DNA from: Segatella hominis
GTDB taxonomy: Bacteria > Bacteroidota > Bacteroidia > Bacteroidales > Bacteroidaceae
Direction of reading: 5' to 3'
DNA length: 64,000 nucleotides
Assembly: GCF_019249725.2 (NCBI RefSeq)
Contig: NZ_CP137559.1
Span: 2,563,501 to 2,627,500, forward strand
Shown: in pieces, positions 26,625 to 52,359 of the stretch
Layout of the letters: the number at the start of each line of letters is the position of its first letter
Numbering within the stretch: the first letter of the stretch is position 1
Notes under the pieces: model-generated
Seen by the model: only the letters and a program-made list of their open reading frames with translations
What the model was told of the DNA's origin: nothing
Database searches by the model: none
Translations under genes and position numbers: made by a program

Positions 26625-28433
26625 TTACTCGGAGAGAGCCAGGCGAAGCCCGAGGTCATTGCCACGGTAAAACGGAGTGATGCTGCCACGGTACGACAAA
26701 CGGCAGCCCCACGCAAAGTCGTACCAGCTACCACCACGGACCACACGGCCCGACCCACTATCGGCACCCGTAGGATTCGTCTGAGAAGAACTCGAATAAG
26801 AACCATACCAATCCGAACACCATTCATATACATTTCCACTCATATCATAGATACCCAACTCATTAGCTTGCTTCGTACCTACAGGATGAGGCTTGCTACC
26901 ACTATTTCCATCATACCAAGCAACATCAGAGATGTTTGAGTTTCCACTGTACTGATACCCCCTACTCTTCTTGCCACCATGAGCAGCATACTCCCATTCT
27001 GCCTCAGTAGGCAAGCGGAACTTTCTGCCTGTCAAGCTATTCAACTTGGAAATGAACTCCTGGCAATCGTTCCAACTCACCATTTCTACAGGAAGATTAT
27101 CACCCTTGTATTCAGAAGGATTACTGCCCATCACCGCTTCCCATAAAGCCTGGGGAACCTCGTACATACCCATATAATAATCATTGGTCAAAGTCACTTG
27201 ATGCACAGGCTTCTCGTTATCATAAGGGTCTTTCATCTCAGAGGTTGCTCCCATCATGAACGTTCCAGCCTCAACCTTCACCATATCGATACTGATACCA
27301 TTCTTCACTGGGATGGAAATCGTATTGCTACCAGAAGACATAGATGATGAGGCTGACGAATATCCCAAGGTATTCGATGAGGATGAGGCTACGGCATTGG
27401 ATGCCAGTGTTCCTGTTATGCTCGCAGTCTGACCTTCAGAAATAGAGACGGACTTCCTGTCTGTGGCATAGCCATCCTTTCTTACCTCCACCTGATGGTT
27501 ACCCACGAGCAAGCCGTTGAACACACGAGGACTTTGCCCCAACTTTTTCCCATCCACATAGACATCGGCACCAAAGGGCTTGTAATTCACGGAGAGATTG
27601 CCTTGGATAGCCACCAACTCGCCAAAGGTCACATCCAACTTCTGTTGTTGCGCCAACTGGATGGTCTTCTGTTGGCTGCGATACCCACTCTTCCTTGCCT
27701 CCAACAGGTGCATGCCTTCCTTCAAGCTACCACTCCATGGCGAATTACCTACAGCCTTCTTATCGACATAAAGAGACACGGCAGGGGTAGGACAAGTTAT
27801 CGAGACACTTGCCATCGCTGAAAGCAAGCTGACGCTGATGGGAGTCATATCGCCACTGCTCACCGTAAAAGAACCGCTCTTGCTGATATAACCACCAGCC
27901 TCCACCTTATAAGTATGCGTGCCGTAAGGCAGCATGGCGGAATACTCACCGTCTGAAGAGCTCGGTTGGAGGACACCATCAATAGTCAACATTGCATTCT
28001 TCGGTTGCACGCTGAGCGCATAGAAGTTGCCACCAGCATCGACAGGCTCTGCACCACCAACAGGCTTGGTCAACACCAATACATATGTCTTGTTTTTCTC
28101 CACCTGACTGATGCCATAGTTGGAGAAATCCACCATAATAGGAAGGTAATCCTTGGTCAACACCTTCATCTGCAGTGAGCCATGGGTCATGTAAGCCCAA
28201 GTCTCGTTGCCTTTCTTCACCAAAGGCTTGATGACATTCCCTTCCACATCAAGGATGTCACCCACGAACTGCACCTTGACCAAGGCGCAAGGCTCGTTGT
28301 TCAAGTCCTTGCGTTGCTGCGTCTGGGCACTGATATCCGTTGCGGAAAGAGAGAAAGACTCAACCGATAACTTTTGTGCAAAGGTGCTTAGGCATAACAT
28401 CATGCCAAATATGAGAAATAATATATGTTTCAT
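26625..28433 (-). CDS. DGR target protein 1: secreted three-PEGA protein with diversified C-type-lectin (FGE-like) domain
   Basis: About 602 residues from ATG 28433 (upstream ATG 28448 adds five). Signal peptide ends STFAQ. Then an N-terminal module shared across this locus (about 21-130, with NEPCALVKVQFVGDILD), three PEGA beta-domains (about 145-340: TIDGVLQ, SLYVDKKAVG, DVYVDGKKLG), a Ser-rich linker, and a formylglycine-generating-enzyme-like domain (about 372-602; FMMGATSEMKDPYDNEKPVH, RLPTEAEWEYAA, GNVYEWCSDW). The last 45 codons are VR1. This fold is a known DGR scaffold; sulfatase-activating enzyme activity is unlikely. Expected role: exported ligand binder. Confidence 0.9.
   Translation of the reverse strand: MKHILFLIFGMMLCLSTFAQKLSVESFSLSATDISAQTQQRKDLNNEPCALVKVQFVGDILDVEGNVIKPLVKKGNETWAYMTHGSLQMKVLTKDYLPIMVDFSNYGISQVEKNKTYVLVLTKPVGGAEPVDAGGNFYALSVQPKNAMLTIDGVLQPSSSDGEYSAMLPYGTHTYKVEAGGYISKSGSFTVSSGDMTPISVSLLSAMASVSITCPTPAVSLYVDKKAVGNSPWSGSLKEGMHLLEARKSGYRSQQKTIQLAQQQKLDVTFGELVAIQGNLSVNYKPFGADVYVDGKKLGQSPRVFNGLLVGNHQVEVRKDGYATDRKSVSISEGQTASITGTLASNAVASSSSNTLGYSSASSSMSSGSNTISIPVKNGISIDMVKVEAGTFMMGATSEMKDPYDNEKPVHQVTLTNDYYMGMYEVPQALWEAVMGSNPSEYKGDNLPVEMVSWNDCQEFISKLNSLTGRKFRLPTEAEWEYAAHGGKKSRGYQYSGNSNISDVAWYDGNSGSKPHPVGTKQANELGIYDMSGNVYEWCSDWYGSYSSSSQTNPTGADSGSGRVVRGGSWYDFAWGCRLSYRGSITPFYRGNDLGLRLALSE
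26631..26765 (-). repeat. VR1, variable repeat of the DGR
   Basis: 135 bp aligning without gaps to the TR at 28632-28766. By hand alignment I count 22 differences, 21 at template adenines; the exception is the G of a GAT codon that reads TTT here. Examples: template AAC codons read GTC, TAC, GAC, GGC, AGC and ATC, and AGG reads TGG. Confidence 0.95.
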
Positions 28434-28448
28434 CTTTTCTATAAACAC

Positions 28449-28631
28449 TGGGTTATATCATTTAATTATCTTAAAGAGACGGTTCTTCGATAAACTTCTT
28501 ACACTACTAAACATCATATATCTGCCACCAGACAGCGGTTTCGAATGCCATGTACATTCTGAATGAGAGCCTGTTTACGACATCTTTACAACAGAGAGTC
28601 CACTCTATATTTTTACAGTTGCCCTAAGCTA
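28449..28631. other. Region between target gene 1 and TR, with inverted VR-flank block
   Basis: No gene. ACGACATCTTTACA at 28577-28590 and GCCCTAAGCT at 28621-28630 are the two conserved blocks found downstream of VR5, but in inverted order and orientation. A small hairpin AGAGTGGACTCT lies between them on the minus strand. Confidence 0.6.
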
Positions 28632-28766
28632 GGAGAGAGCCAGGCGAAGCCCGAGGTTATTGTTACGGTTATCTGGAGTGTTGTTGTTACGGTACGACAA
28701 ACGGCAGTTCCTCGCATTGTTGTTCCAGCTATCACCACGGTTCACACGGCTCGACCCACTATCGGC
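28632..28766 (-). repeat. DGR template repeat (TR)
   Basis: 135 bp, non-coding template. Read in the VR frame it gives RVNRGDSWNNNARNCRLSY, then RNNNTPDNRNNNLG, with 12 Asn AAY codons clustered exactly where the VR proteins vary. It ends CTCTCTCC then TAG, whereas VRs continue GAGTAACG. It starts 14 bp after the RT stop. In known DGRs the TR transcript is copied into cDNA with errors at A and replaces the VR. Confidence 0.96.
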
Positions 28767-28780: not shown

Positions 28781-29200
28781 TCAAATAAGACAAGCCTTCC
28801 TGAAAATCCAAGATTCAGCGTGTTTCACAAAAGCGACCAAAGGAAGCAAATGCTCATGAAACGTTTGCTCATCCCATAATTGCGCGTCAAACAATTTTCC
28901 ATATAGCTGCAACTTCTTACGATAGCACCGTTTGCTTCTTCCCGACAACTCACATCTATACGGTTTGACCTTGTAACCCAAAAAGTTCTGTCCATCTTTT
29001 GTTGCCCTAAATATCGGAGGCTTTAGCCTAAGTTCTAATTGTTTTTCAGCATATTCCTTCAATCTTTCATATATGAACTTCAGTTTGTCTTTGTCATCGG
29101 CAATGAGCAACATATCATCCATATACCTTATATATAGGTACTTTCAACACCTCCTTCACATATCAGCTATTCGTTCTATCAGATTACCCACTCGTTTCAT
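28781..29200 (-). pseudogene. DGR reverse transcriptase with internal deletion
   Basis: The start at 29200 overlaps the HRDC stop by 17 bp and encodes MKRVGNLIERIADM, a typical DGR-RT N-terminus, then TGA. A second in-frame stop follows, then KYLYIRYMDDMLLIADDKDK and a further ~105 residues to the stop at 28781. An alternative frame at the join reads YVKEVLKVPIY, the residues expected just before YIRYMDD, so a large deletion plus probable loss of one TA from a TA run removed the fingers and most of the palm (motif A Asp and the template-contact motifs). The enzyme should be inactive. Confidence 0.92.
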
Positions 29201-29648
29201 CGGTCTTTTTATTCATTTCGTCAATCATTCTGCTTCCATATTTCTCCACTTTCTTTTTTCCTATGCCAGGAACAGCTTGTATGACTGTCAAACTTAGTTC
29301 CTTCTGCTTGGCAAGTTCTGCCAATTCTGCGTCAGTGAAAATCGCATAAGCAGGCACCGCCTCCTCATCTGCTATTGCTTTCCTCACTTTGCGAAGCCGT
29401 GAGAATGTATTGAAGGCTACCTCATCCAAGACGTCCTTATAGTCAATCTTTACATTCTTATTTTGCAACGATTGACTTGGCTTTGAGTCCAAAAGGTAAG
29501 AGACACAAAAAGTCCATACACTATTGCCATTCTGTACAGCAATTTCTTTGCGAACATCTATTATCTTGTGAGACCGCAAGAAATGGTTTATCTCCTCCGT
29601 TTGCTGCTCATCAGGCGCTAAGGATATTGTAAATATTTTTAATTGCAT
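29184..29648 (-). CDS. HRDC-domain DGR accessory protein
   Basis: 154 residues. The N-terminal ~70 form a mixed domain (SLAPDEQQTEEINHFLRSHK...); the HRDC domain covers about 78-147 with LRKVRKAIADEEAVPAYAIF and a helix-hairpin-helix-like PGIGKKKVEKYG. HRDC proteins are a recognised accessory type in DGR cassettes, where they may take the nucleic-acid role of Avd. It overlaps the RT start, so the two were translationally coupled. The gene itself looks intact. Confidence 0.88.
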   Translation of the reverse strand: MQLKIFTISLAPDEQQTEEINHFLRSHKIIDVRKEIAVQNGNSVWTFCVSYLLDSKPSQSLQNKNVKIDYKDVLDEVAFNTFSRLRKVRKAIADEEAVPAYAIFTDAELAELAKQKELSLTVIQAVPGIGKKKVEKYGSRMIDEMNKKTDETSG

Positions 29649-29858
29649 ATTTTGTTCTTTTCTTTAAAAATTACGCTAAAATCTGCTGAATAGCTTAAAA
29701 TGAGCTATTTATGAGTGTGTTACCTCGATAGAGGTAATGATTTGGCAATAGTCCTAATTTCTGCAATATGCGTAATGTTTGCTGTCAAACAACTCTTTTC
29801 AGGTGCAAATTTAATATAAATTTTCGAGATATAAGCTAAAATACCAAATAAAATTGTG

Positions 29859-29866
29859 TACCTTTG
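29859..29866 (+). promoter_or_regulatory. -7 box of the XRE-hsd operon
   Basis: TACCTTTG 28 bp before the XRE start matches TAnnTTTG; no clear -33 box, as is common for activated promoters. The surrounding 29649-29893 interval holds no gene. Confidence 0.4.
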
Positions 29867-29893
29867 CAGTGGCAAATTCAAAATCAAGATAAA

Positions 29894-30097
29894 ATGAACA
29901 GAATTAAGGAGATTCTTGAACGCAAAGGTGTCAGTCAAACAGATTTGGCACATCGGCTTGGCAAAACATTTAATATGGTAAATCTATACGCTACAAATAA
30001 AGTTCAGCCACCGATACCTATACTGTACAAAATTGCTGAAATTTTGGACGTGGACATTAGAGAGCTTCTTGTTTCAAATAAAATAGATACGCAATGA
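29894..30097 (+). CDS. XRE-family HTH regulator (putative R-M controller)
   Basis: 67 residues from ATG 29894, almost entirely a helix-turn-helix domain (KGVSQTDLAHRLGKTFNMVN; then LYKIAEILDVDIRELL). Its stop overlaps the hsdM start (ATGA at 30094-30097). Small XRE proteins encoded just before R-M genes often act as controller proteins timing methylase and nuclease expression; that role is inferred. An earlier in-frame ATG at 29864 was rejected because it overlaps the promoter. Confidence 0.8.
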   Translation: MNRIKEILERKGVSQTDLAHRLGKTFNMVNLYATNKVQPPIPILYKIAEILDVDIRELLVSNKIDTQ

Positions 30098-32235
30098 AAT
30101 TAACAGACATAATTAAAGGAACAGAATATGACCTAAGTTTGTTCTCCGACAAGCATATTGCAGAGTTAGAGAACCGTATAGTTGAGCGAAAAACAAATGG
30201 GGGGGGTAAATATTATCTCACTTGTTTAGTTCGCAAGAAAGAAATAAAACTGACTCCTGAGGAAGTGGTGCGCCAACTATATTTATTGGTGCTTATAGAG
30301 GATTATGGGTATTCCACATCAAAAATGGAATTGGAATACGAAGTGACTTTTGGACGAGAAAAGAAGCGTGCTGATATTGTTATTTTTGATAAACAAGACA
30401 CAACAGCACCTTTTATTATAGTAGAAGTCAAGAAGCCAAAACTCAAAGACGGCAAGGAACAGCTCAAGAGCTATTGCAATGCTACAGGTGCACCTATTGG
30501 TGTATGGAGCAATGGAAAGAGCATTTCATACTATCATCGAAAAGACCCTAACTATTTTGAGGATTTAAGCAGCATACCTCGTGCCGACCAAAAACTATCA
30601 GACATCATTTCTGAACGTTGGACTATTGATGACCTTATCAAGAAAGACAAGCTTGTCAATGAGCGCAAGTCACTGAAAGACTTGATTCTCGAAATGGAAG
30701 ACGAGGTGCTTGCCAATGCTGGCGTTGATGTCTTTGAGGAGGTGTTCAAATTGATTTTCACCAAACTTTACGATGAAATGGAGAGCGGACGCAAGAAAGA
30801 CCGTAATCTTGTATTCCGTAACTATGGTGACACAGAGGAGGAACTAAGAGACAAACTACAGGATTTGTTCGACCAAGCCAAAGAAAAATGGGCAGGTGTA
30901 TTCTCTGAAGATGCCAAACTGCAATTGGCACCTTCCCATCTGTCTGTATGTGTTGCCTCATTACAAGATGTAAAACTGTTCAATTCTAACCTCGAAGTCG
31001 TTGATGAAGCCTTTGAATATCTTATCTCAAAGAATTCAAAAGGTGAGAAAGGACAATATTTCACGCCTCGCTATGTGATAGATATGTGCGTGAAGATGCT
31101 GAACCCAAAGGAGGATGAAAAGATGATAGATACCGCAGCGGGAAGTTGTGGTTTTCCAGTTCATACAATTTTCCATGTTTGGCAAAATATCTTGGATAGA
31201 AAAGGATTGAAACGTAGCCATCTTTTTACTCTTGAACAGAAACCTGCCGAATGTACAGACTATGTTCAAAACAATGTTTTTGCCATTGATTTTGATGAAA
31301 AGACCGTACGTGTGGCTCGTACCTTGAATCTCATAGCTGGCGATGGGCAAACTAATGTGTTGCATCTCAACACATTGGATTATGAGCGTTGGGAAAGCGA
31401 CTATGTGCAAAGACCGGGGTGGCTTGAAACGTATAGTACAGGTTGGTTTAAATTGCAAAAGTTGAGAGCGGACAAGAAGAGTTATCGTGATTTTACATTT
31501 GACATAGTAATGGCAAATCCTCCTTTTGCAGGCGACATCAAGGAAAGTCGTGTTATATCAAAGTATGATCTTGGAAGAAACATGGCTGTGGAAAAATTAA
31601 AGGCTTGTCCTAAAGGTATTTCTGTAGTACAAAAAGAGCCAACTTTCATAGATGCACTTACTAACGATGGGGAAACTGTATATCAAATGAGTGATGGCAC
31701 ATTCCGCAAAACAAAATTGAAGACACAGGTTAAGATAAGCCGTGATATTCTATTCGTGGAGCGAAACATTGACTTTCTGAAACCAGGTGGAAGAATGGCA
31801 ATTGTTCTGCCACAAGGTCGTTTCAATAATAGCAGCGATAAGGCATTGCGTGAATACATAGCTGACCGTTGTCGGATATTGGCTGTTGTCGGATTACATG
31901 GTAATGTGTTTAAACCCCATACAGGAACAAAGACAAGTGTCTTGTTCGTCCAAAAATGGGATGATGTGTTATGCCCAAGAGTAAAGGACTACAATATTTT
32001 CTTTGCCACAATGCAAGAGCCAAGTAAGGATAATAGTGGTGATAAGATTTACCGAAGCACAACAGACGAGAATGGAAATACTGTTCCACTTCTTGACACA
32101 CATGGGCATCTTGTTGTAAAGCATGATCTATTCAATCATGAAGGTCTTACACAAGATGGCATCGCTGAAGCTTTCGCAGAGTTTGCAAAGAAAGAAAAAC
32201 TCTCTTTTTTCGCAAGTGCCCCTTTGACGAAGTAA
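30094..32235 (+). CDS. hsdM: N6-adenine DNA methyltransferase fused to HsdR_N-type nuclease domain (HsdM)
   Basis: 713 residues. An N-terminal PD-(D/E)XK-like domain (about 45-150) shows KRADIVIFDK and FIIVEVKKPK, giving D...ExK. The methylase domain starts with EKGQYFTPRYVIDMCVKML (about 317), SAM loop DTAAGSCGFPVHTI, and catalytic NPPF in VMANPPFAGDI. A nuclease-methylase chain with a separate S subunit and no HsdR in view recalls type IIB (BcgI-like) systems. A G8 tract at codons 35-37 makes expression phase-variable: both 7G and 9G lead to early stops. Confidence 0.88.
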   Translation: MKLTDIIKGTEYDLSLFSDKHIAELENRIVERKTNGGGKYYLTCLVRKKEIKLTPEEVVRQLYLLVLIEDYGYSTSKMELEYEVTFGREKKRADIVIFDKQDTTAPFIIVEVKKPKLKDGKEQLKSYCNATGAPIGVWSNGKSISYYHRKDPNYFEDLSSIPRADQKLSDIISERWTIDDLIKKDKLVNERKSLKDLILEMEDEVLANAGVDVFEEVFKLIFTKLYDEMESGRKKDRNLVFRNYGDTEEELRDKLQDLFDQAKEKWAGVFSEDAKLQLAPSHLSVCVASLQDVKLFNSNLEVVDEAFEYLISKNSKGEKGQYFTPRYVIDMCVKMLNPKEDEKMIDTAAGSCGFPVHTIFHVWQNILDRKGLKRSHLFTLEQKPAECTDYVQNNVFAIDFDEKTVRVARTLNLIAGDGQTNVLHLNTLDYERWESDYVQRPGWLETYSTGWFKLQKLRADKKSYRDFTFDIVMANPPFAGDIKESRVISKYDLGRNMAVEKLKACPKGISVVQKEPTFIDALTNDGETVYQMSDGTFRKTKLKTQVKISRDILFVERNIDFLKPGGRMAIVLPQGRFNNSSDKALREYIADRCRILAVVGLHGNVFKPHTGTKTSVLFVQKWDDVLCPRVKDYNIFFATMQEPSKDNSGDKIYRSTTDENGNTVPLLDTHGHLVVKHDLFNHEGLTQDGIAEAFAEFAKKEKLSFFASAPLTK
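30199..30206 (+). repeat. G8 tract in hsdM (phase-variation switch)
   Basis: AATGGGGGGGGTAAA: with 8 G the frame reads Asn-Gly-Gly-Gly-Lys. With 9 G the next codon is TAA; with 7 G a TAG follows after seven codons. Slippage would turn the enzyme off. Confidence 0.8.
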
Positions 32236-32246
32236 GATACAAGACT

Positions 32247-34382: not shown

Positions 34383-34386
34383 AGAA

Positions 34387-34436
34387 AGATGCCAAGATAA
34401 TCACTTTTTTAGGGTATTTATCTTGGCATCTTTTTA
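34387..34436 (+). terminator. Terminator between hsdS and the relaxase gene
   Basis: AGATGCCAAGATAA (34387-34400) pairs with TTATCTTGGCATCT (34418-34431), followed by T5. It separates convergent genes and could serve both strands. Confidence 0.75.
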
Positions 34437-38452: not shown

Positions 38453-38487
38453 AAATTCTCCTTTGTAACTTATAAAAATTAAAGTTG

Positions 38488-40692: not shown

Positions 40693-40838
40693 AAAAAAAT
40701 CGGCTTCGCCGATAATGATTGATTCGATGTCTGCCGAGATGGTTTGTCCCGAGGCTCATCCTTCGCCTCTCCTTTTGACCATCACGACTGCCATCTCAAT
40801 TTGCCTTTTTAGCTTAGAGCTTTTTGGGTAAAGATATC
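40693..40838 (-). repeat. Repeat R1, copy a (downstream of VR2)
   Basis: Contains ATCGGCTTCGCCGAT, GATTGATTCGATGTCT, CATCCTTCGCCTCTCC and ATCTCAATTTGCCTTTTT. Copies follow VR5 (48886-49010) and, shorter, VR6 (50469-50527). Confidence 0.75.
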
Positions 40839-40839
40839 G

Positions 40840-42273
40840 TTACTCGGAGAGAGCCAGGCGAAGCCCGAGGGCATTGCCACGGTAAAACTGAGTGTTGAAG
40901 TAACGGCACGACAAACGGCAGAGCCACGCACCGTTGCGCCAGCTACCACCACGGTACACACGGCTCGACCCACTATCGGCACCCGTAGGATTCGTCTGAG
41001 AAGAACTCGAATAAGAACCATACCAATCCGAACACCATTCATATACATTTCCACTCATATCATAGATACCCAACTCATTAGCTTGCTTCGTACCTACAGG
41101 ATGAGGCTTGCTGCCACTATTTCCATCATACCAAGCAACATCAGAAATGTTTGAGTTTCCACTGTACTGATACCCCCTACTCTTCTTGCCACCACGAGCA
41201 GCATACTCCCATTCTGCCTCAGTAGGCAAGCGGAACTTTCTGCCTGTCAAGCTATTCAACTTGGAAATGAACTCCTGGCAATCGTTCCAACTCACCATTT
41301 CTACAGGAAGATTATCACCCTTGTATTCAGAAGGATTACTGCCCATCACCGCTTCCCATAAAGCCTGGGGAACCTCGTACTTACCCATATAATAATCATT
41401 GGTCAAGGTCACTTGATGCACAGGCTTCTCGTCATCATAAGGGTCTTTCATCTCAGAGGTTGCTCCCATCATGAACGTTCCAGCCTCCACTTTCACCATC
41501 TCAATACTGATGCCATCCTTCACAGGGATGGAAATCGCATTGCTACCAGAAGCTACAGAAGGGGAACCAGACGAATTATTCGATGAAGAAGCTACATACG
41601 TATTTGACAATTGTTGATTTTCAGATTGCTGTTGATTCACAATTCCTGCACCAACAGATTCTCTAGTCAAGGTAATCTGCAGATTACTCGGAGCGGAAGC
41701 CTTCAACTTCACCGTTCCCTCTTCCGACTCATAACCATCACAAGCAACTATATAGGAATGCTGACCGACGGGCAAGGTCGTCTTTGCCACTCCATTGCTC
41801 CCTCTCACCATCTTGTTATCCACAAGGACCGTGGCGGTAGAAGGGGTATATCTGATGATGAGCGATTGTTTTTGTTGAATAACAGACTCTGAACCATTAG
41901 CAGGCTTAGTCAATACCAATACATACGTCTTGTTTTTCTCCACCTGACTGATGCCATAGTTGGAGAAATCCACCATGATAGGAAGGTAATCCTTGGTCAA
42001 CACCTTCATCTGCTGCGAACCATGGGTCATGTAAGCCCAAGTTTCGTTGCCATTCTTCACCAAAGGCTTGATGACATTTCCTTCCACATCAAGGATGTCA
42101 CCCACAAACTGCACCTTTACCAAGGCGCAAGGCTCGTCGTTCAAGTCCTTGCGTTGCTGCGTCTGAGCACTGATGTCTGTTGCGGCAAGAGAGAAAGACT
42201 CAACCGATAACTTTTGGGCAAAGGTACCCAAACTTATCAATAGACAAAATATAAAGCCCAATACTCGTTTCAT
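40840..42273 (-). CDS. DGR target protein 2: secreted one-PEGA protein with diversified lectin domain
   Basis: 477 residues. Signal peptide ends GTFAQ; shared N-terminal module about 20-125; one PEGA domain about 135-200 (TVLVDNKMVRGSNGVAKTTL); Ser/Gln-rich linker; FGE-like domain about 245-477 nearly identical to that of target 1 outside the VR. The variable tail reads RVYRGGSWRNGAWLCRLSCR, then YFNTQFYRGNALG. It lies between the AlbA_2 regulator gene and repeat R1. Presumably an exported binding protein. Confidence 0.9.
   Translation of the reverse strand: MKRVLGFIFCLLISLGTFAQKLSVESFSLAATDISAQTQQRKDLNDEPCALVKVQFVGDILDVEGNVIKPLVKNGNETWAYMTHGSQQMKVLTKDYLPIMVDFSNYGISQVEKNKTYVLVLTKPANGSESVIQQKQSLIIRYTPSTATVLVDNKMVRGSNGVAKTTLPVGQHSYIVACDGYESEEGTVKLKASAPSNLQITLTRESVGAGIVNQQQSENQQLSNTYVASSSNNSSGSPSVASGSNAISIPVKDGISIEMVKVEAGTFMMGATSEMKDPYDDEKPVHQVTLTNDYYMGKYEVPQALWEAVMGSNPSEYKGDNLPVEMVSWNDCQEFISKLNSLTGRKFRLPTEAEWEYAARGGKKSRGYQYSGNSNISDVAWYDGNSGSKPHPVGTKQANELGIYDMSGNVYEWCSDWYGSYSSSSQTNPTGADSGSSRVYRGGSWRNGAWLCRLSCRYFNTQFYRGNALGLRLALSE
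40846..40980 (-). repeat. VR2, variable repeat of the DGR
   Basis: 135 bp, gap-free against the TR. I count 22 differences, 20 at template adenines. Template AAC codons read TAC, CGC, CTC, TTC, GGC and GCC. Confidence 0.95.
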
Positions 42274-42315
42274 AATTGACTAAATATATACACGTAATAC
42301 AACTCACTATATCTT

Positions 42316-43812: not shown

Positions 43813-43829
43813 ATTTTTCGATTTTGGGA

Positions 43830-43861
43830 CAAAGATAGTGATATTATTCGTATTCTCCAAA
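43830..43861 (-). promoter_or_regulatory. Promoter of the AlbA_2 gene
   Basis: Minus-strand TTTG (complement of 43858-43861) and TATCTTTG (complement of 43830-43837), 20 bp apart. The same sequence is kept before the deleted copy near 26520. Confidence 0.6.
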
Positions 43862-43917
43862 CTAATGACTGGAAAAATACGAAAAATCGTGAACCTTTTT
43901 CTTTTGTAAAGATGTCG

Positions 43918-45456
43918 TTACTCGGAGAGCACTAAACGGAGCCCGAGGATGTCACTGCGGTAGCAGTTGTTTTGAGTACTGCCGAAACGGCACGACAAGC
44001 GACAATTTCTCGCAATGTCGTACCGGCTACCACCACGATAGACTCGCTGCTTCCCATTGCTAGCACCGGTTGGATTAGTCTGAGAAGAACTATCATAAGA
44101 ACCATACCAATCCTGACACCATTCTGAAACGTTACCACTCATGTCACAAATTCCTAATTCATTGGCTTGTTTCGTGCCTACAGGATGAATCTTGTAGGTA
44201 TTATACCAAGCGACATCATAGACTTTGGAACTGCCACTGTACTGATAGCCCCTACTCTTCTTGCCACCACGAGCGGCATATTCCCATTCTGCCTCTGTTG
44301 GCAAGCGAAATTTTCTTCCTGTCAAACTATTTAACTTAGAAATAAACTCTTGGCAATCGTTCCAACTTACCATTTCTACAGGAAGGCTCTCAACATAGCA
44401 TTTATCCATCAACGCTTGCCACAAACTACCAGTTTTCACAGAAAGACTATCACCCTTAAAATGTGATGGATTATTACCCATCACGGCTTGCCATAAAGCC
44501 TGGGTCACTTCATACTTACCTATATAATAGTCATTTGTCAAAGTCACTTGATGTACAGGTTTCTCATTATCATAAGGGTCTTTCATCTCCGAAGTCGCTC
44601 CCATCATGAAAGTGCCAGCCTCCACCTTCACCAGCTCAATATTGATACCATCTTTCACTGGGATTGAAATCGTGTTGCTACCCGAAGCCGTAGAAGATGA
44701 GCTTGAAGAATATCCCGAGTTATTCGACGAGGCAGCGTTAGATGTGGATACTGAAGATATCTGATTATGTATGGAGGATTGGTTAACCGAAGTCTGCTGA
44801 CTTTCTGCTGTAGAATTTACACCACCGACTCCTGACGTTTCTTTCGTCAATGTAATCTGTAAATTACTTGGGGCGGAAGCCTTCAACTTCACCGTTCCCT
44901 CTTCCGACTCATAACCATCGCAAGCTACAATATAGGAATGCTGACCGACTGGCAAAGTCGTCCTAGCCACTCCTTTGCTCCCTCTCACCATCTTGTTATC
45001 TACAAGAACAGTGGCGGTAGAAGGGGAATATTTGATAATGAGCGATTGGCATTGTTGCATAACAGCCTCTACACCACCGCCAGGCTTAGACAAAATCAAT
45101 ACATACGTCTTGTTCTTCTCCACTTGATTGATACCGAAGTTGGAGAAATTCACCATGATAGGAAGATAATCCTTAGTCAACACCTTCATCTGCTGTGAGC
45201 CATGGGTCATGTAAACCCAAGTCTCGTTCCCTTTCTTCACCAATGGCTTGATGACATTCCCTTCCACATCAAGGATGTCACCCACGAGCTGCACCTTTAT
45301 CAAGGCACAAGGCTCATCGTTCAAGTCCTTGCGTGGCTGCGTCTGGGCACTGATGTCCGTAGCTGAAAGAGAAAAAGACTTCACTTTCAGTTCTTGGGCT
45401 GAAGTTCCTAAGCACAATATTATGCCAAATATAAAATGCAGTATTCGTTTCTTCAT
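43918..45456 (-). CDS. DGR target protein 3: secreted one-PEGA protein with lectin domain
   Basis: 512 residues. Signal peptide ends GTSAQ; N-terminal module; one PEGA domain (TVLVDNKMVRGSKGVARTTL); Ser-rich linker; FGE-like domain about 280-512. This copy has an extra ~20-residue insertion duplicating the LWQALM region (about 375-395), and its variable tail (RFGSTQNNCYRSDILG) is two residues longer than the TR would encode, so it was not written recently by the present TR. Ends LRLVLSE instead of LRLALSE. Confidence 0.88.
   Translation of the reverse strand: MKKRILHFIFGIILCLGTSAQELKVKSFSLSATDISAQTQPRKDLNDEPCALIKVQLVGDILDVEGNVIKPLVKKGNETWVYMTHGSQQMKVLTKDYLPIMVNFSNFGINQVEKNKTYVLILSKPGGGVEAVMQQCQSLIIKYSPSTATVLVDNKMVRGSKGVARTTLPVGQHSYIVACDGYESEEGTVKLKASAPSNLQITLTKETSGVGGVNSTAESQQTSVNQSSIHNQISSVSTSNAASSNNSGYSSSSSSTASGSNTISIPVKDGINIELVKVEAGTFMMGATSEMKDPYDNEKPVHQVTLTNDYYIGKYEVTQALWQAVMGNNPSHFKGDSLSVKTGSLWQALMDKCYVESLPVEMVSWNDCQEFISKLNSLTGRKFRLPTEAEWEYAARGGKKSRGYQYSGSSKVYDVAWYNTYKIHPVGTKQANELGICDMSGNVSEWCQDWYGSYDSSSQTNPTGASNGKQRVYRGGSRYDIARNCRLSCRFGSTQNNCYRSDILGLRLVLSE
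43924..44064 (-). repeat. VR3, older variable repeat
   Basis: Homologous to the TR but six bases longer and with several non-adenine differences. Probably derived from an earlier template. Confidence 0.75.
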
Positions 45457-45477: not shown

Positions 45478-46059
45478 TTATTCTACGTAACCCTTTCCAA
45501 AGCAGGTTTGACATGTATGATGAACGTGAGAGTGCGCAGGTCCTGTTGAACCACATTTCGCGCAATACGTAGAATTGTCCTCTCCAGTATAATTTGGCGC
45601 ATAAATAATTTCATTATTACCCTGTCCTGTACCATTGCAGTAAGGACAAGTACGACGAGTGGAAGTTGGCGTTGGGTCTTCGTAAGTACCAGATGGAGAA
45701 GAAGGCACAGAAATAGGATTGATTTGTCCACCTGTAGGATGAATATCGTCATCATCTTCTGTCTCATCACCATTTTCCTCTTCTGTATTTCCAAAGCTTG
45801 TGCCATTCATTAACTTCTTATATCGCTCCGCAGTTAGCCATCCTAATCCAAAGCATTTGTCACACTTCTTGCTAATCAAGCCAAACAAATGCCAGGAAGA
45901 ATATCCTGTATGGTCGCAATAAGGACATTTCTCACATTTATCCCACAAATCCCCGAATGGATGTAACTTAGAAGATGGTTCAGATACATATAACATATAA
46001 CAGAAGAAAGCAACTTCTGCATACAAAAGATACTTAAAAAATTTATTCATAATCAACAA
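45478..46059 (-). CDS. DnaJ-like zinc-finger (CxxCxGxG) membrane-anchored protein
   Basis: 193 residues; start at 46059 or ATG 46050. A hydrophobic N-terminal segment (about 5-23) acts as signal anchor. Cys clusters: CEKCPYCDHTGY, KCDKCFGLGW, CPYCNGTGQG, CAKCGSTG and CQTCFGKG, the DnaJ cysteine-rich pattern without a J domain. A Thr/Ser/Pro/Asp-rich linker lies between the first two and the last three. It might assist folding of disulfide or zinc proteins in the envelope. Lies between target genes 3 and 4. Confidence 0.75.
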   Translation of the reverse strand: MLIMNKFFKYLLYAEVAFFCYMLYVSEPSSKLHPFGDLWDKCEKCPYCDHTGYSSWHLFGLISKKCDKCFGLGWLTAERYKKLMNGTSFGNTEEENGDETEDDDDIHPTGGQINPISVPSSPSGTYEDPTPTSTRRTCPYCNGTGQGNNEIIYAPNYTGEDNSTYCAKCGSTGPAHSHVHHTCQTCFGKGYVE

Positions 46060-46100
46060 TTTTAAATTATAATTTATATTTTTTATGTGAAAAGATGCCG

Positions 46101-47243
46101 TTACTCGGAGAGAACCAAGCGGAGTCCGAGATCATAATGACCTGAGTCTTGGGTATCTGGGAGGCGACATGGTAAGCAACAACTTTCTTCATCATCAACC
46201 CAACAAGTACCACGATATACTCGAAACTCTCCACTAACAACACCTGTAGGATTGATCTGGGACGAACTTGAATAATCTCCATACCAATCTTGGCACCACT
46301 CGCAAACATTTCCGCTCATATCATAAAGTCCTAACTCGTTTGGTTGTTTGGTTCCAACAGGATGTGTTGTACTACCACTATTTCCACCATACCACGCCAC
46401 ATCCGAGATTTTACTGCTACCACTATAACGATAGCCTCTGCTCTTCATACCACCACGAGCAGCATATTCCCATTCTGCTTCAGACGGTAAACGAAACTTC
46501 TTGCCAGTCATACTATTTAATTTTGCGATAAACTCTTGACTATCATCCCAACTCACTTGTTCTACAGGAAGATTATTACCTTTGAAATATGAAGGATTAC
46601 TTCCCATTACAACTTGCCATTGTGCCTGAGTAACCTCATATTTGCCCATGTAATAGTCATGGGTCAAAGTCACCTGATGAATAGTTTTCTCATCTGCCGA
46701 CGCATTTTTATCTTCAGATGTCGCACCCATCATGAAGGTTCCAGCCTCCACCTTCACCATCTCGATATTGACACCATCCTTAATTGGTATTGTGATAACA
46801 TCGGCAGAAGAAGTTTTTGAAGGGGCATTCATTGTTGAAGCCGATGATGTAGCTTCCGCAGAATACCCTCCCATTTGACTCAGCACCAACACATAAGTTC
46901 TATTTTTCTCAACACTCTCCACGCCATAATCAGCAAACTTTATCATCAATGGAAGATTATTCTTGGCTGTCACTTGCATCTGACGAGAGCCATGAGTCAG
47001 ATACACCCATGTCTCATAATCTTCTTTCAGCAAAGGCAATATCACATTTCCCTTTACATTCAAGATGTCACCAACAAACTGCACCTTGACCAAGGCGCAA
47101 GGCTCGTCGTTCAAGTCCTTGCGCGGCTGAGTCTGGGCACTGATGTCAGTTGCGGAAAGAGTGAATGATTTCACTTTTAGCTCTTGTGCTATAACATTAA
47201 CGCTAAATAAAACAATAAGTATCAAAAAACATATACGCTTCAT
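46101..47243 (-). CDS. DGR target protein 4: secreted lectin-domain protein without PEGA
   Basis: 380 residues. Signal peptide ends NVIAQ; shared N-terminal module about 20-125 (PRKDLNDEPCALVKVQFVGD); short linker; FGE-like domain about 150-380 (FMMGATSEDKNASADEKTIH). Shortest target. Its tail RVYRGTCWVDDEESCCLPCR, then LPDTQDSGHYDLG, aligns with the TR by length but has several non-adenine changes. Sequence is the most diverged of the six targets. Confidence 0.88.
   Translation of the reverse strand: MKRICFLILIVLFSVNVIAQELKVKSFTLSATDISAQTQPRKDLNDEPCALVKVQFVGDILNVKGNVILPLLKEDYETWVYLTHGSRQMQVTAKNNLPLMIKFADYGVESVEKNRTYVLVLSQMGGYSAEATSSASTMNAPSKTSSADVITIPIKDGVNIEMVKVEAGTFMMGATSEDKNASADEKTIHQVTLTHDYYMGKYEVTQAQWQVVMGSNPSYFKGNNLPVEQVSWDDSQEFIAKLNSMTGKKFRLPSEAEWEYAARGGMKSRGYRYSGSSKISDVAWYGGNSGSTTHPVGTKQPNELGLYDMSGNVCEWCQDWYGDYSSSSQINPTGVVSGEFRVYRGTCWVDDEESCCLPCRLPDTQDSGHYDLGLRLVLSE
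46107..46240 (-). repeat. VR4, older variable repeat
   Basis: Aligns to the TR at protein level; many changes outside template adenines. Confidence 0.75.
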
Positions 47244-47305
47244 TGTTTTCTAATTTACTCTAATTACACAACAATTAAATTTCATACACTTTAGTGGCAA
47301 AATTA

Positions 47306-47992
47306 TTATCCCAAGCCAAAAGTTGGTGCTTGATTCATTTCTAATAAGAATAACAATCGAAAAGACTTTCCCTCTTCATCATGCCGCGGATAGTTAGGCC
47401 CCCACCAAAAAACACCATCACAAACAGATTCTTTCAACAAAGTATCAGCCATTTCAACATCTATAGGCACTCCTCGACCATAATAATAACATTTAGCCAA
47501 ATAATATTTTGTAAGGCGAGTATAAATACAATAATCGGGCACTTTTCTAAAGAAATCAATTGCCTCTGAATACTTTTCAGAATCATAAGCAATAACTCCT
47601 TGCAACCAATTACTCAATTGACATCCTTTAGAAGCAGCAACGCGTATATACCAAAGAGCATGAATGCCATCATCAGGAGTATTAACTCCCAATTTGAAAT
47701 AATCCATTTCAGCTAAATAACAATACGCTGTATCTGAGTTTTCTTTAATCGCTTTTTCCAAAAAATATCTCGCAGTTGAATACTTTCTCAACTTACAATA
47801 AGAAACAGCGCAAGACAATTGTTTAGACACATTATCTTGCTCTGCATCAATGCTATCTAATCTTAACTGTTTCTTTGCTTTCAAGTTGCCAAACGCTCCC
47901 AATAAAAACCCAGCATTAGCATACGTAGAAAAAGCAAATGACAAAAATAAAACAGCAACCATTTTCCTTACTATCATATTTACTTTATTCAT
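47306..47992 (-). CDS. Secreted Sel1-like repeat protein
   Basis: 228 residues; signal peptide about 1-27 ending TYANA (an internal ATG at 47974 is an alternative start). The rest is TPR/Sel1-like: ARYFLEKAIKENSDTAYCYL, ALWYIRVAASKGCQLSNWLQG, YYLAKCYYYGRGVPIDVEMA. Such repeats scaffold protein contacts. Overlaps the upstream pseudogene by 8 bp, so it belonged to the same transcript. Confidence 0.75.
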   Translation of the reverse strand: MNKVNMIVRKMVAVLFLSFAFSTYANAGFLLGAFGNLKAKKQLRLDSIDAEQDNVSKQLSCAVSYCKLRKYSTARYFLEKAIKENSDTAYCYLAEMDYFKLGVNTPDDGIHALWYIRVAASKGCQLSNWLQGVIAYDSEKYSEAIDFFRKVPDYCIYTRLTKYYLAKCYYYGRGVPIDVEMADTLLKESVCDGVFWWGPNYPRHDEEGKSFRLLFLLEMNQAPTFGLG

Positions 47993-48829
47993 TTACGTTT
48001 AATTTATTATTTTCAGATATTTTATAAGCAATCTCTCTCTTCTTTTGAGGTTCTGAATCATAATATCCTTTCAACAACAATATTTCCAACACATCGTAAC
48101 ATGATTTTTCGCCTTTACCTATCCCAGATATAGCTAATTTTTCTGCTTCCGAATCATGATATTCTTTTATTAGTTTCATCGCTTGAGCATACTGACCATC
48201 AAGCGATTCCTGTACTTTTTCATCTTTCTTAGAACTTAAGTCCAATGAAATTTCTGTAGGAGCTGAAGCCGATAAATGCAAAATGCCTTTATTTTTCACC
48301 AAACCAGTCTTTAGCAAATATTCGTAAGTTCCAACAGGTAACATTTGGCTCCACATCCCATTAACTCCTTTCATTAAAGTTCCGTTTAAATAAAGTTGTG
48401 CATTAGCAGGTTGATAACGGATGGTTAGAGACTGAAACTCCTGTATTTCATCTTTTACAGAAATACTTAGTTCATAGGTTTGTTTTGAAACAAGTGCGTG
48501 AATGCCATAAGATGAAAAATCTACAGTTAAAGAACCACTTCTTGGAGTTTTTATCTTTAAAAATCTTGTGCCTTCCGTTAGGTAAACCCAATACTCATTG
48601 TTGACATAGCCAACATTTCCCATGACATTTCCTTCAAATATTGCATTGTCTATTGGCTATACAATTTTCATTAAAGCGCATGCCTTGCCATTCAAGTCAT
48701 ATACAGGAGATATGCTTGCAGACAGGTCTTCCGGTGTTGCCTTCAATGTTATAACTTCCATCGCCTGTACATGAGAAGCGGAAACCCAAAACCATAACAA
48801 CAATAAAAAAACAAAATTTTATTCCTCAT
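47985..48829 (-). pseudogene. Broken N-module/PEGA protein without lectin domain
   Basis: Start at 48829 (MRNKILFF). A missing T in a T7 run shifts the frame in the signal peptide; the second frame then gives EVITLKATPEDLSASISPVY and NGKACALMKIV, matching the shared N-terminal module, and meets a TAG at 48657-48659. The open part from 48623 continues in the same frame with the module end, one PEGA domain (AQLYLNGTLMKGVNGMWSQM) and a helical tail. Either degraded or carrying sequencing errors. Confidence 0.8.
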
Positions 48830-48885
48830 AAATCACTCATTTTTCATCTATATATAAATCCAAAAGATACTTGTAACTCTATAAC

Positions 48886-49010
48886 TGCTTTGTCGATGAT
48901 GATTGATTCGATGTCTTTCGAGATGGTCTTTCCCGAGGCTCATCCTTCGCCTCTCCTTTTGACCATCACGACTGCCATCTCAATTTGCCTTTTTTGCTTA
49001 GGGCTTTTTT
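48886..49010 (-). repeat. Repeat R1, copy b (downstream of VR5)
   Basis: Close relative of 40693-40838. It includes GCTTAGGGC, followed by the VR flank TGTAAAGATGTCGT. Confidence 0.75.
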
Positions 49011-49023
49011 TGTAAAGATGTCG

Positions 49024-50457
49024 TTACTCGGAGAGAACCAGACGGAGCCCGAGGCCGTTGATGTGGAAGTCGGGAGAGATGATGAAACGGCACGACGAAC
49101 GGCAGAGCCTCGCACTGCAGTCCCAACTACCACCACGGTACACACGGAGCGACCCACTATAGGAACCAGTAGGATTCGTCAGATAGAAACTCGAATAAGA
49201 ACCATACCTATCCTGACACCATTCCCATACGTTACCTGACATATTATAAATCCCCAACTCATTAGCTTGCTTCGTACCTACAGGATGTGTCTTATTGGCA
49301 CTATTGTCTTTATACCAAACAACATCAGAGATGTTTGAACTGCCACTATACTGATAGCTGCGACTCTTCTTGCCACCACGAGCGGCATACTCCCATTCTG
49401 CCTCGGTTGGCAAGCGAAACTTTCTGCCTGTCAAGCTATTCAACTTGGAAATGAACTCCTGGCAATCGTTCCAACTCACTTGCTCTACTGGAAGGTTATC
49501 ACCCTTGAAGTGAGATGGATTACTGCCCATCACCGCTTCCCATAAAGCCTGGGTAACCTCGTACTTACCCATATAATAATCATTGGTCAAAGTCACTTGA
49601 TGCACAGGCTTTTCCCAATCATAAGGGTCTTTCATCTCCGAGGTCGCTCCCATCATGAACGTTCCAGCCTCCACTTTCACCATCTCGATACTGATACCAT
49701 CTTTCACAGGGATGGAAATCGTATTGCTACCCGAAGCAACAGAAGGGGAACCAGACGGATTATTTGACGAAGAAGCTACATACGTATTTGACGATTGTTG
49801 ATTTTCAGATTGCTGTTGATTCACAATTCCTGCACCAACAGATTCCCTTGTCAAGGTAATCTGCAGATTACTCGGAACGGAAGCCTTCAATTTCACCGTT
49901 CCCTCTTCCGACTCATAACCATCACAAGCAACTATATAGGAGTGCTGACCGACAGGCAAAGTCGTCTTAGCCACTCCATTGTTCCCTCTCACCATTTTGT
50001 TATCCACAAGAACCGTGGCGGTAGAAGGGGTATATCTGATGATGAGAGATTGGCTTTGCTGCATAACAGACTCAGCACCACCAACAGGCTTGGTCAACAC
50101 CAATACATATGTCTTGTTTTTCTCCACCTGACTGATTCCATAGTTGGAGAAATCCACCATAATAGGAAGGTAATCCTTGGTCAACACCTTCATCTGCTGT
50201 GAGCCATGGGTCATGTAAGCCCAAGTCTCGTTGCCTTTCTTTACCAAAGGCTTGATGACATTCCCTTCCACATCAAGGATGTCACCCACGAACTGCACCT
50301 TGACCAAGGCGCAAGGCTCATCGTTCAAGTCTTTGCGTGGCTGCGTCTGAGCACTGATGTCTGTTGCGGCAAGAGTGAAAGACTTCACTTTCAGTTCTTG
50401 AGAATATATGCCTAAACATAGCAATATGCCAAATATAAAGAATAAACTTCGTTTCAT
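49024..50457 (-). CDS. DGR target protein 5: secreted one-PEGA protein with lectin domain
   Basis: About 477 residues from ATG 50457 (MKRSLFFIFGILLCLGIYSQ); the ORF can extend ten codons upstream into repeat R1 but the signal peptide fixes the start. N-terminal module, one PEGA domain (TVLVDNKMVRGNNGVAKTTL), linker almost identical to target 2, FGE-like domain with PYDWEKPVH and GNVWEWCQDRYGS. Variable tail RVYRGGSWDCSARLCRSSCR, then FIISPDFHINGLG. Confidence 0.9.
   Translation of the reverse strand: MKRSLFFIFGILLCLGIYSQELKVKSFTLAATDISAQTQPRKDLNDEPCALVKVQFVGDILDVEGNVIKPLVKKGNETWAYMTHGSQQMKVLTKDYLPIMVDFSNYGISQVEKNKTYVLVLTKPVGGAESVMQQSQSLIIRYTPSTATVLVDNKMVRGNNGVAKTTLPVGQHSYIVACDGYESEEGTVKLKASVPSNLQITLTRESVGAGIVNQQQSENQQSSNTYVASSSNNPSGSPSVASGSNTISIPVKDGISIEMVKVEAGTFMMGATSEMKDPYDWEKPVHQVTLTNDYYMGKYEVTQALWEAVMGSNPSHFKGDNLPVEQVSWNDCQEFISKLNSLTGRKFRLPTEAEWEYAARGGKKSRSYQYSGSSNISDVVWYKDNSANKTHPVGTKQANELGIYNMSGNVWEWCQDRYGSYSSFYLTNPTGSYSGSLRVYRGGSWDCSARLCRSSCRFIISPDFHINGLGLRLVLSE
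49030..49164 (-). repeat. VR5, variable repeat (partly diverged)
   Basis: 135 bp in gap-free register with the TR. Asn codons are replaced by TAC, GAC, TGC, CTC, TTC and ATC, but silent and other changes (CTT CGC to CTC CGT, GCT to GTT) show time since last homing. Confidence 0.88.
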
Positions 50458-50468
50458 TTTTTCACAAG

Positions 50469-50527
50469 ATAAAATCGGCTTCGCCAATGATGATTGATTC
50501 GATGTCTTTCGAGATGGTCTTTTTTTG
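50469..50527 (-). repeat. Repeat R1, copy c (downstream of VR6, short)
   Basis: AAAATCGGCTTCGCC followed by GATTGATTCGATGTCTTT; lacks the second half seen in copies a and b. Confidence 0.7.
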
Positions 50528-50538
50528 TAAAGATATCG

Positions 50539-52359
50539 TTACTCGGAGAGAGCCAGGCGAAGCCCGAGGTTGATGAGAAGGCTACCTGGAGAGTTGCCGA
50601 GACGGAACGACAAACGGCAGCAACCCGCATAGTTGCACCAGCCACCACCACGACACACACGGCCCGACCCACTATCGGCACCCGTAGGATTCGTCTGAGA
50701 AGAACTCGAATAAGAACCATACCAATCCGAACACCATTCATATACATTTCCACTCATATCATAGATACCCAACTCATTAGCTTGCTTCGTACCTACAGGA
50801 TGAGGCTTGCTGCCACGATTTCCATCATACCAAGCAACATCAGAGATGTTTGAGTTTCCACTGTACTGATACCCCCTACTCCTCTTGCCACCACGAGCAG
50901 CATACTCCCATTCTGCCTCAGTAGGCAAGCGGAACTTTCTGCCTGTCAAGCTATTCAACTTGGAAATGAACTTCTGGCAATCGTTCCAACTCACTTTCTC
51001 TACTGGAAGGTTATCACCCTTGTATTTAGAAGGATTACTGCCCATCACCGCTTCCCATAAAGCCTGGGGAACCTCGTACTTACCCATATAATAATCATTG
51101 GTCAAGGTCACTTGATGCACAGGCTTCTCGTCATCATAAGGGTCTTTCATCTCAGAGGTTGCTCCCATCATGAACGTTCCAGCCTCCACTTTCACCATCT
51201 CAATACTGATACCATCTTTCACAGGGATGGAAATCGCATTGCTACCCGAAGCCATAGATGATGAGCCAGACGAATATCCCAAGGTATTCGATGAGGATGA
51301 GGCTACGGCATTGGATACCAGTGTTCCTGTTATGCTCGCTGTCTGACCTTCAGAAATAGAGACGGACTTCCTGTCTGTGGCATAGCCATCCTTTCTTACC
51401 TCCACCTGATGGTTACCCACGAGCAAGCCGTTGAACACACGAGGACTTTGCCCCAACTTTTTCCCATCCACATAGACATCGGCACCAAAGGGCTTGTAAT
51501 TCACGGAGAGATTGCCTTGGATAGCCACCAACTCGTCAAAGGTCACATCCAACTTCTGCTGTTGCGCCAACAGGATGGTCTTCTGTTGGCTGCGATACCC
51601 ACTCTTTCTTGCCTCCAACAGGTGCATGCCTTCCTTCAAGCTACCACTCCAAGGCGAATTACCCACAGCCTTCTTATCTACATAAAGAGACACGGCAGGG
51701 GTAGGACAAGTAATCGAGACGCTTGCCATTGCTGAAAGCAAGCTGACGCTGATGGGAGTCATATCGCCACTGCTCACCGTAAAAGAGCCGCTCTTACTGA
51801 TATAACCACCAGCCTCCACCTTATAAGTATGCGTGCCGTAAGGCAGCATGGCGGAATACTCGCCGTCAGTGGAGACATTTTGCTGTATTCCATCAATAGT
51901 AACAACTGCATTCTTCGGTTGCACGCTGAGCGCATAAAAGTTGCCACCGGCATCGACAGGCTCTGCACCCATATTCTGTATTACTAAATCCAACACATAA
52001 GTACGCTTGCTTTCCACGCCATCAATGCCAAAATCTGGAAAATAGACTCGGAGCGGCTTGTAATGCATCGGTATGACCCTTATCTCCTTCGTTCCCTTGG
52101 ACAGATACACCCACTTCTCGGAAGAGAAATTTCGGATGTCACCGATGACATTGCCTTGCACCTTGGATATGTCATCTAGCAGGAGTATCTTCACCAAGGC
52201 ACAAACATTACCGACTTCATCCGTGCGCAAATTTTCGACCAAGGAGGCAGACAAGTCATTGCTTGCTAGCTTAAAGGACTTCACCTTCAGCTCCTGCGAA
52301 AAGGTACACAGACAAATAATCAAACTTATTATAAGAAAATAAAAACGCCTCATAAACAA
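50539..52359 (-). CDS. DGR target protein 6: secreted three-PEGA protein with diversified lectin domain
   Basis: 606 residues (ATG 52353 is an alternative start). Signal peptide ends CTFSQ. The N-terminal module is diverged (LASNDLSASLVENLRTDEVG), while the three PEGA domains and FGE-like domain are almost identical to those of target 1, indicating exchange of the C-terminal three quarters. Variable tail RVCRGGGWCNYAGCCRLSFR, then LGNSPGSLLINLG. First target gene after the signalling module. Confidence 0.9.
   Translation of the reverse strand: MFMRRFYFLIISLIICLCTFSQELKVKSFKLASNDLSASLVENLRTDEVGNVCALVKILLLDDISKVQGNVIGDIRNFSSEKWVYLSKGTKEIRVIPMHYKPLRVYFPDFGIDGVESKRTYVLDLVIQNMGAEPVDAGGNFYALSVQPKNAVVTIDGIQQNVSTDGEYSAMLPYGTHTYKVEAGGYISKSGSFTVSSGDMTPISVSLLSAMASVSITCPTPAVSLYVDKKAVGNSPWSGSLKEGMHLLEARKSGYRSQQKTILLAQQQKLDVTFDELVAIQGNLSVNYKPFGADVYVDGKKLGQSPRVFNGLLVGNHQVEVRKDGYATDRKSVSISEGQTASITGTLVSNAVASSSSNTLGYSSGSSSMASGSNAISIPVKDGISIEMVKVEAGTFMMGATSEMKDPYDDEKPVHQVTLTNDYYMGKYEVPQALWEAVMGSNPSKYKGDNLPVEKVSWNDCQKFISKLNSLTGRKFRLPTEAEWEYAARGGKRSRGYQYSGNSNISDVAWYDGNRGSKPHPVGTKQANELGIYDMSGNVYEWCSDWYGSYSSSSQTNPTGADSGSGRVCRGGGWCNYAGCCRLSFRLGNSPGSLLINLGLRLALSE
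50545..50679 (-). repeat. VR6, variable repeat of the DGR
   Basis: 135 bp, gap-free against the TR; 26 differences by hand count, 22 at template adenines. AAC codons read TGC, CTC, GGC and AGC. Confidence 0.93.

Follow-up and report, generated by a model that had tools for sequence, protein, structure and literature searches.

In the diversity-generating retroelement (DGR) of Bordetella phage BPP-1 (L237 in our numbering), which has a template repeat (TR), a variable repeat (VR), adenine mutagenesis and a reverse transcriptase (RT), efficient homing depends on a hairpin 3′ of the target VR, the stem sequence of which can vary (PMC3240598). How the mutagenised complementary DNA (cDNA) enters the target is described as incompletely understood (PMC12875486). 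Isolates of Treponema denticola carry two to seven DGR targets (PMC4891356), and multiple VRs were reported for 271 of the 948 DGRs in one survey (PMC6642488). There are published examples of multi-target DGRs, of DGRs with an HRDC gene (HRDC-type DGRs), of broken RTs and of target genes that lack the machinery (PMC4891356, PMC3521204, PMC6642488). Here we describe an HRDC-type DGR in a stretch of 64,000 nucleotides (nt) from Segatella hominis (RefSeq assembly GCF_019249725.2, contig NZ_CP137559.1, positions 2,563,501 to 2,627,500), hereafter the window, which contains one TR, six paralogous genes (g1 to g6), an HRDC gene and an RT whose middle is deleted. Based on comparisons of flanking sequences, we propose that the template RNA of this DGR probably found its targets through base-pairing between its 3′ flank and the sense strand directly behind the VRs.

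The described systems resemble the window in different respects. The T. denticola DGR of TvpA is like it in having an HRDC gene that overlaps the RT, one TR with several targets and the FGE/C-type-lectin fold, and in 8 of the 17 T. denticola strains listed, target genes persist although TR and RT both number 0; in T. denticola, however, the targets are dispersed, and the accessory gene is reported to lie between the TR and the RT (PMC4891356). Inactivated DGRs in DiGReF likewise keep the VR/TR pair while the RT is broken, although the lesions named there are nonsense, frameshift or insertion mutations, whereas in the window the RT gene has lost an internal stretch, in a locus of the HRDC type with several targets (PMC3521204). 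BPP-1 shares with the window the TR and VR, the adenine mutagenesis, the RT and an inverted repeat directly 3′ of the VR that matters for homing (PMC3240598). Its hairpin lies wholly in the target, whereas HRDC-type loci place the second arm beside the TR, and the flank of the BPP-1 TR contains only a chance-level 9-nt inverted match. Complementarity between TR and VR flanks is not described in the literature searched, including passages of PMC3240598, PMC10907252, PMC12875486, PMC4891356, PMC10053308 and PMC7517822, and the words hairpin, inverted repeat and cruciform are absent from the main text of PMC4891356. This flank address appears to be a feature that is new and general to the HRDC-type class, with its priority unproven.

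The address stands immediately behind the target genes of the window. In g1, g3 and g5, ACGACATCTTTACAA follows directly on the TA of the stop codon, and its reverse complement (P′) occurs 37 nt after the TR. All six genes pair with P′ in the same register through the corresponding 15-mer (P). The addresses of g2, g4 and g6 each carry a single transition, which is of the wobble kind, and those of g2 and g4 have two more unpaired bases each (Table 1). Among the six flanks, the P 15-mers had a mean pairwise identity of 0.86, whereas later stretches of the same length gave 0.41, 0.35 and 0.41. With gaps allowed, the complementarity of the g1 and g3 flanks to the TR flank extended over approximately 45 nt, and the scores of g1 (42), g3 (37), g5 (30) and g6 (26) were above those of all 99 background TR flanks. 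These complementary flanks are better evidence than the VR letters that the six genes formed one target set.

We also examined flank pairing across other DGR loci, in which the HRDC type was defined by a tblastn match of the window HRDC protein beside the RT. TR/VR pairs were called automatically, which gave 146 loci with usable flanks; 16 with identical VR flanks were dropped, leaving 130 (31 HRDC-type and 99 others). Pairing was scored with gaps using the best pair per locus, a cut-off of >21 and a threshold of at least 26 for strong loci. Most HRDC-type loci show the complementarity. Of the 31 HRDC-type loci, 10 had an exact inverted match of at least 13 nt between the VR and TR 3′ flanks; none of the 99 others and none of 1056 mispaired flanks had one. 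The mean score of the HRDC-type loci was 31.4, with 24 of 31 above 21 and the own TR flank ranked strictly first in 24 of 31; for the non-HRDC loci the mean was 14.3, and 3 of 99 exceeded 21 and 3 of 99 ranked their own flank strictly first. In a control using VR-upstream sequence, 0 of 31 loci scored above the 99th percentile. From a new set of 30 loci, 1 already known, 7 without a repeat pair and 2 HRDC-type loci with a short or identical flank were removed; in these new genomes, under a prediction fixed beforehand, scores exceeded 21 in 12 of the remaining 13 HRDC-type loci and in 0 of 7 others. When a combined set of 167 DGR loci (47 HRDC-type and 120 others) was reduced to 26 and 55 representatives, respectively, the own TR flank came first in 20 of 26 (p = 9e-24) and 2 of 55 (p = 0.26). 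Locus L005, whose three targets score 34, 34 and 44, supports the use of one address for several targets. Two other origins of the inverted match in the window had also been considered, the remains of a seventh gene and a terminator; both were set aside after inverted flank matches were found in other HRDC-type loci.

The typical layout of the paired segments is VR-P-Q at the target and TR-Q′-P′ at the template. In 26 of 29 strong loci, the pairing on the TR side starts at the TR end or up to 12 nt ahead of it; in the other three it starts at +11, +22 and +38. The letters vary between species while pairing is kept, with 35 distinct Q′ 12-mers in 44 loci. A mismatch was classed as wobble type if it would leave the TR RNA able to pair with the sense strand of the target. 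Of the 26 representatives, 16 scored at least 26, and their 46 mismatches comprised 24 of wobble type, 4 of mirror type and 18 transversions (p = 1.8e-4); 32 distinct loci gave 38, 7 and 29, respectively, and a mispaired control gave 283 wobble versus 264 mirror mismatches. This asymmetry points to RNA, because DNA inverted repeats should have no such direction. It therefore counts, together with the variation in letters between species, against the idea that the flanks are DNA inverted repeats, whether as a recombination site or as the termini of an HRDC-RT-TR cassette that is mobile. Such repeats do flank HRDC-RT-TR in single-target loci, but copies also follow g2 to g6 at distances of 12-22 kb from the TR, and L005 has three targets; we consider this explanation decidedly improbable. 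Wobble would equally fit RNA-RNA pairing, in which a TR transcript binds the stop codon of target messenger RNA (mRNA), either for antisense control or to tether the ribonucleoprotein to a transcribed target, and the same data do not separate pairing with mRNA from pairing with single-stranded DNA. Pairing in the window begins inside the stop codon (VR+2), as this account would have it, whereas regulation would not need the pairing to be anchored at the TR end, as it is in 26 of the 29 strong loci, and we view a role of this sort as unlikely. Taken together, the excess of own-flank pairing in HRDC-type loci, the varied letters and the wobble bias suggest that HRDC-type DGRs likely use template RNA to address their targets.

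Hairpins at the target were evaluated in the same flanks. Of the 99 non-HRDC flanks, 43 have a stem of at least 7 bp 3′ of the VR, as do 4 of the 31 HRDC-type flanks. No BPP-1-type hairpin of 7-10 bp was found 3′ of the VR in the six window flanks, in which the longest stem was 4-5 bp; the BPP-1 control returned an 8-bp stem with a GAAA loop. The small number of hairpins in HRDC-type loci, along with flank pairing, suggests that these DGRs have one arm at the target and the other at the template. In the mechanism that we propose, the 3′ flank of the TR RNA would pair with single-stranded target DNA (or nascent mRNA), which would bring the end of the TR next to the 3′ end of the VR so that cDNA can be transferred, and this pairing would replace the target hairpin of BPP-1-type DGRs. 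More speculatively, a sense strand nicked at the TR end could prime reverse transcription, which is conceivable because pairing reaches the TR end in many relatives, though not clearly in the window. In HRDC-type loci such as L017, L192, L223 and L226, the flank 3′ of the TR also contains a recurrent GCCGGATAGC/GCCGGATGGC, located between Q′ and P′, as well as a ACAGATTATT-like motif after P′, each a candidate RT-binding RNA element.

The VRs themselves were compared with the TR by aligning it to the 3′ ends of g1 to g6 over 138 columns, 35 of which are A in the TR, with hypergeometric p values. Differences fell at template A in 21 of 23 cases for VR1 (2 non-A; p = 1.3e-13), 20 of 23 for VR2 (3 non-A; p = 6e-12) and 22 of 27 for VR6 (5 non-A; p = 4e-12). 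The signal was weaker in VR5 (21 at A and 13 non-A, 21/34; p = 1.2e-7) and unconvincing in VR3 (17 and 30, 17/47; p = 0.03), which has 6 extra bases, and VR4 (22 and 41, 22/63; p = 0.015). Tabulated by template base, substitutions are thus concentrated at A in VR1, VR2 and VR6 (each p < 1e-11), partly so in VR5 and hardly so in VR3 and VR4; most of the A-changes fall at positions 1 and 2 of the TR codons. The strongest single datum comes from g1 and g2: 17 of the 35 template-A columns differ between these two genes, as against 1 among the 103 non-A columns and 3 among 360 bases of flank. These A-limited differences within near-identical flanks indicate that hypermutation occurred later than the g1/g2 duplication. 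The non-A divergence of VR5 (13/103) approximates the divergence of its flank from those of g1, g2 and g6 (13-14%), which suggests that the TR has not recently overwritten VR5. We conclude that VR1, VR2 and VR6 are recent copies of the window TR and that VR5 is an older copy; the letters of VR3 and VR4 do not identify them as copies of this TR. An earlier sequence-only reading of the window had called the locus a DGR, which the A-specific mutagenesis in VR1, VR2 and VR6 makes clear that it is, and its hand counts for these repeats (21/22, 20/22 and 22/26, respectively) were right within one base. The template that it placed at 28632-28766 is confirmed, with the extent by alignment given in Table 1; T136 of the TR, just beyond the end assigned by that reading, is G in every VR. 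Its assignment of six VRs to one TR holds in that six paralogous genes are present, but the VR letters back only three to four of them. Such a target set, which it regarded as large, is not exceptional beside the two to seven targets of T. denticola and the multi-VR DGRs of the survey cited above. It had missed the internal deletion of the RT, the HRDC accessory gene and the complementary flanks.

Several observations weigh against target addressing by the template RNA. Within the window, g2 scores 21, a value that 1 of 99 background flanks also reaches, and g4 scores 18, which 24 of 99 reach; pairing begins at TR+9 to TR+39 rather than at the TR end, save for the 9-nt Q′ of g5; and g3 and g4 carry the address without a convincing signature in their VRs. 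For the latter two genes it is a real, if doubtful, possibility that they were never DGR targets and that their resemblance reflects FGE paralogy only. Their low shares of differences at A and a g4 address no better than background would fit that history, but an address in the same register follows both stop codons, with 15/15 bases paired in g3 and 12 plus 1 wobble of 15 in g4. Among other loci, 7 of 31 of the HRDC type do not exceed 21, including L015, L016 and L018, which show nothing (16), and two Treponema loci score 16 and 21. Loci with multiple pairs are weak or negative for some of them (L014: 24, 25; L191: 20, 20; L070: 21, 13; L218: 24, 16, 13, 15). The 13 new HRDC-type loci form one clade of close relatives with a mispaired mean of 29.5 and the own flank first in 1 of 13, and they are little more than one confirmation. 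Finally, because the HRDC class was defined by tblastn to the window protein, some of the loci counted as others may be missed members.

A related set of genes was observed in L189 (G474:C18:51000-70000), where seven FGE paralogues lie in tandem, possibly as a second relic array or because the assembly is incomplete. No RT, HRDC gene or separate TR was found in this genome (G474). The close pair t14404/t17666 differs at 16 of 35 A columns and 4 of 103 non-A columns, with a flank divergence of 6.3%. This A pattern suggests that the G474 paralogues are also DGR-diversified, and they therefore provide no clean negative control for plain FGE divergence. Two of the L189 flanks contain CTAAGC, as in HRDC-type targets.

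The RT of the window is interrupted by a deletion. Its remnant resembles the RTs of DGRs and matches residues 214-283 of PDB 8ub7, which we take to be the BPP-1 RT, and the 14 codons at its start match the N-terminus of intact RT relatives, including P0122. Residues ~15-200 are absent between the two pieces, with stops and a frame change at the junction, and the deleted stretch covers KLDVRKYFDSI and IGNLTSQ of the relatives, so that the catalytic motifs before YMDD are gone and the RT is predicted to be inactive. Relatives were collected as 238 proteins from the best 120 of 4610 and the best 120 of 1952, among which the closest full-length RT is P0122, at 77% identity to the remnant. One relative, P0001 (126 residues, 97% identical to the remnant, with 24 member sequences and a single 1358-bp contig), starts immediately 3′ of that junction. 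Compared from its own start onward, it supports a genuine truncation that is common to other sequences. That the deletion is an assembly artefact is highly improbable given P0001, which stands for 24 sequences, and given that no direct or inverted repeat of at least 14 nt occurs within 29100-30100.

Taken at the level of its sequence, the window DGR is a relic rather than a working member, and with its RT broken the repertoire is likely frozen in the host genome unless another RT acts in trans. The latter would mean that the system is still active, with an RT encoded elsewhere working on the window TR and HRDC gene. Preservation of the HRDC gene, the TR and the addresses would suit this, as would the few non-A changes in VR1, VR2 and VR6, and as a point against the relic status, an RT elsewhere in the host is possible, the examination having covered only the 64-kb window. 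Inactivated DGRs with clean VR/TR pairs have been described as recent losses (PMC3521204). The closest other full-length RT in the collection above is 77% identical to the remnant, and we judge activity in trans to be fairly unlikely.

Relatives of the locus were sought more widely. Matches to the RT occurred in 33 of 393 genomes of the host order, and 40 of 42 among the matches listed had no internal stop, under a threshold that disfavours fragments. The HRDC gene adjoins the RT in the window, and it lies 5′ of the RT in 8 of 8 RT-bearing loci (of 13 loci given), which all have the gene order target-HRDC-RT-TR, the target of L192 being cut by a contig end. No TR or RT match was found in two genomes of the host order with ArgS 83% and 82% identical; in the genus of one such ArgS-close genome, a TR/RT DNA match was found in 3 of 150 and a g2-like protein (E ≤ 1e-110) in 3 of 398, none of them close. 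The 24-mer at the TR end had 0 matches in IMG/VR, RT relatives on viral contigs were only 25-48% identical, and no HRDC match was found among RT-bearing viral contigs having a repeat pair.

The products of g1 to g6 all end in an FGE-sulfatase domain (6/6; E = 2.6e-49 to 4.6e-51 for five and 4.4e-47 for g4), which places the VRs at the 3′ ends of genes for C-type-lectin/FGE-fold proteins. A profile of g2 and its relatives had T. denticola TvpA (2y3c) as top match (E = 1.2e-65), as did an AlphaFold model of g2 (mean pLDDT 77, pTM 0.51; E = 8.8e-18), which fits the FGE/C-type-lectin tails that had been suggested from sequence. The proteins had also been called secreted; by eye they have hydrophobic N-termini, and secretion is predicted only. 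Within 45478-57760, the target genes form a run with genes for a TPR protein, a Ser/Thr kinase, a Sel1-repeat protein and a protein with a weak match to the DnaJ-like CXXCXGXG motif. A Schlafen/AlbA_2 gene has a shortened copy, 98-99% identical, downstream of g1 (25874-26520 and 42309-43860). Between g2 and the HRDC gene, an 11-kb mobilisable element (29654-40705) has apparently inserted, which encodes an integrase, Mob, a Toprim/primase-like protein, DUF5906 and type I restriction-modification. Imperfect 24-nt direct repeats lie near its ends (29654-29677 and 40682-40705), and an identical AAATGGGGGGGGTAAA with a G8 tract occurs in the methylase/HsdR-N gene and the specificity gene (30195-30210 and 33590-33605), which is a possible slippage switch.

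Table 1. Positions of the DGR features and flank addresses in the window
Feature	Position	Strand	Remarks
TR	28629..28766	-	138 nt; 12 AAY codons; TCCTAG at end where VRs read TCCGAG
VR1	26628..26765	-	gene g1, 26625-28448
VR2	40843..40980	-	gene g2, 40840-42273
VR3	43921..44064	-	gene g3, 43918-45456; 6-nt insertion, diverged
VR4	46104..46241	-	gene g4, 46101-47243; little TR likeness
VR5	49027..49164	-	gene g5, 49024-50487; older copy
VR6	50542..50679	-	gene g6, 50539-52359
P′ address 3′ of TR	28577..28591	-	TTGTAAAGATGTCGT, TR+37 to +51; reverse complement of 15 bases after stop-codon TA in g1, g3, g5
Q′ at TR end	28621..28629	-	GCTTAGGGC, 9 nt; complementary to GCCCTAAGC, 22 nt downstream of VR5
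P after g1	26611..26625	-	15/15 Watson-Crick with P′
P after g2	40826..40840	-	12 Watson-Crick + 1 wobble of 15
P after g3	43904..43918	-	15/15
P after g4	46087..46101	-	12 Watson-Crick + 1 wobble of 15
P after g5	49010..49024	-	15/15
P after g6	50525..50539	-	14 Watson-Crick + 1 wobble of 15
RT C-terminal third	28781..29140	-	open, KYLYIRYMDD to stop; upstream of TR
RT N-terminus	29159..29200	-	14 codons, MKRVGNLIERIADM, then stop
HRDC accessory gene	29184..29648	-	open, 154 residues; overlaps RT start; PF00570, E = 1.4e-16

More broadly, and at what we consider about even odds, HRDC-type DGRs could be RNA-addressed hypermutators, in which an antisense address 3′ of the template serves several targets each and replaces the hairpin, and in which loss of the RT would leave behind an addressed, diversified receptor family. 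The address bears on how one template reaches several or distant targets. If it is real and compensable, cDNA entry and multi-target reach would become testable with paired mutants, and the address would furnish a sequence rule for predicting the remote targets of HRDC-type DGRs.

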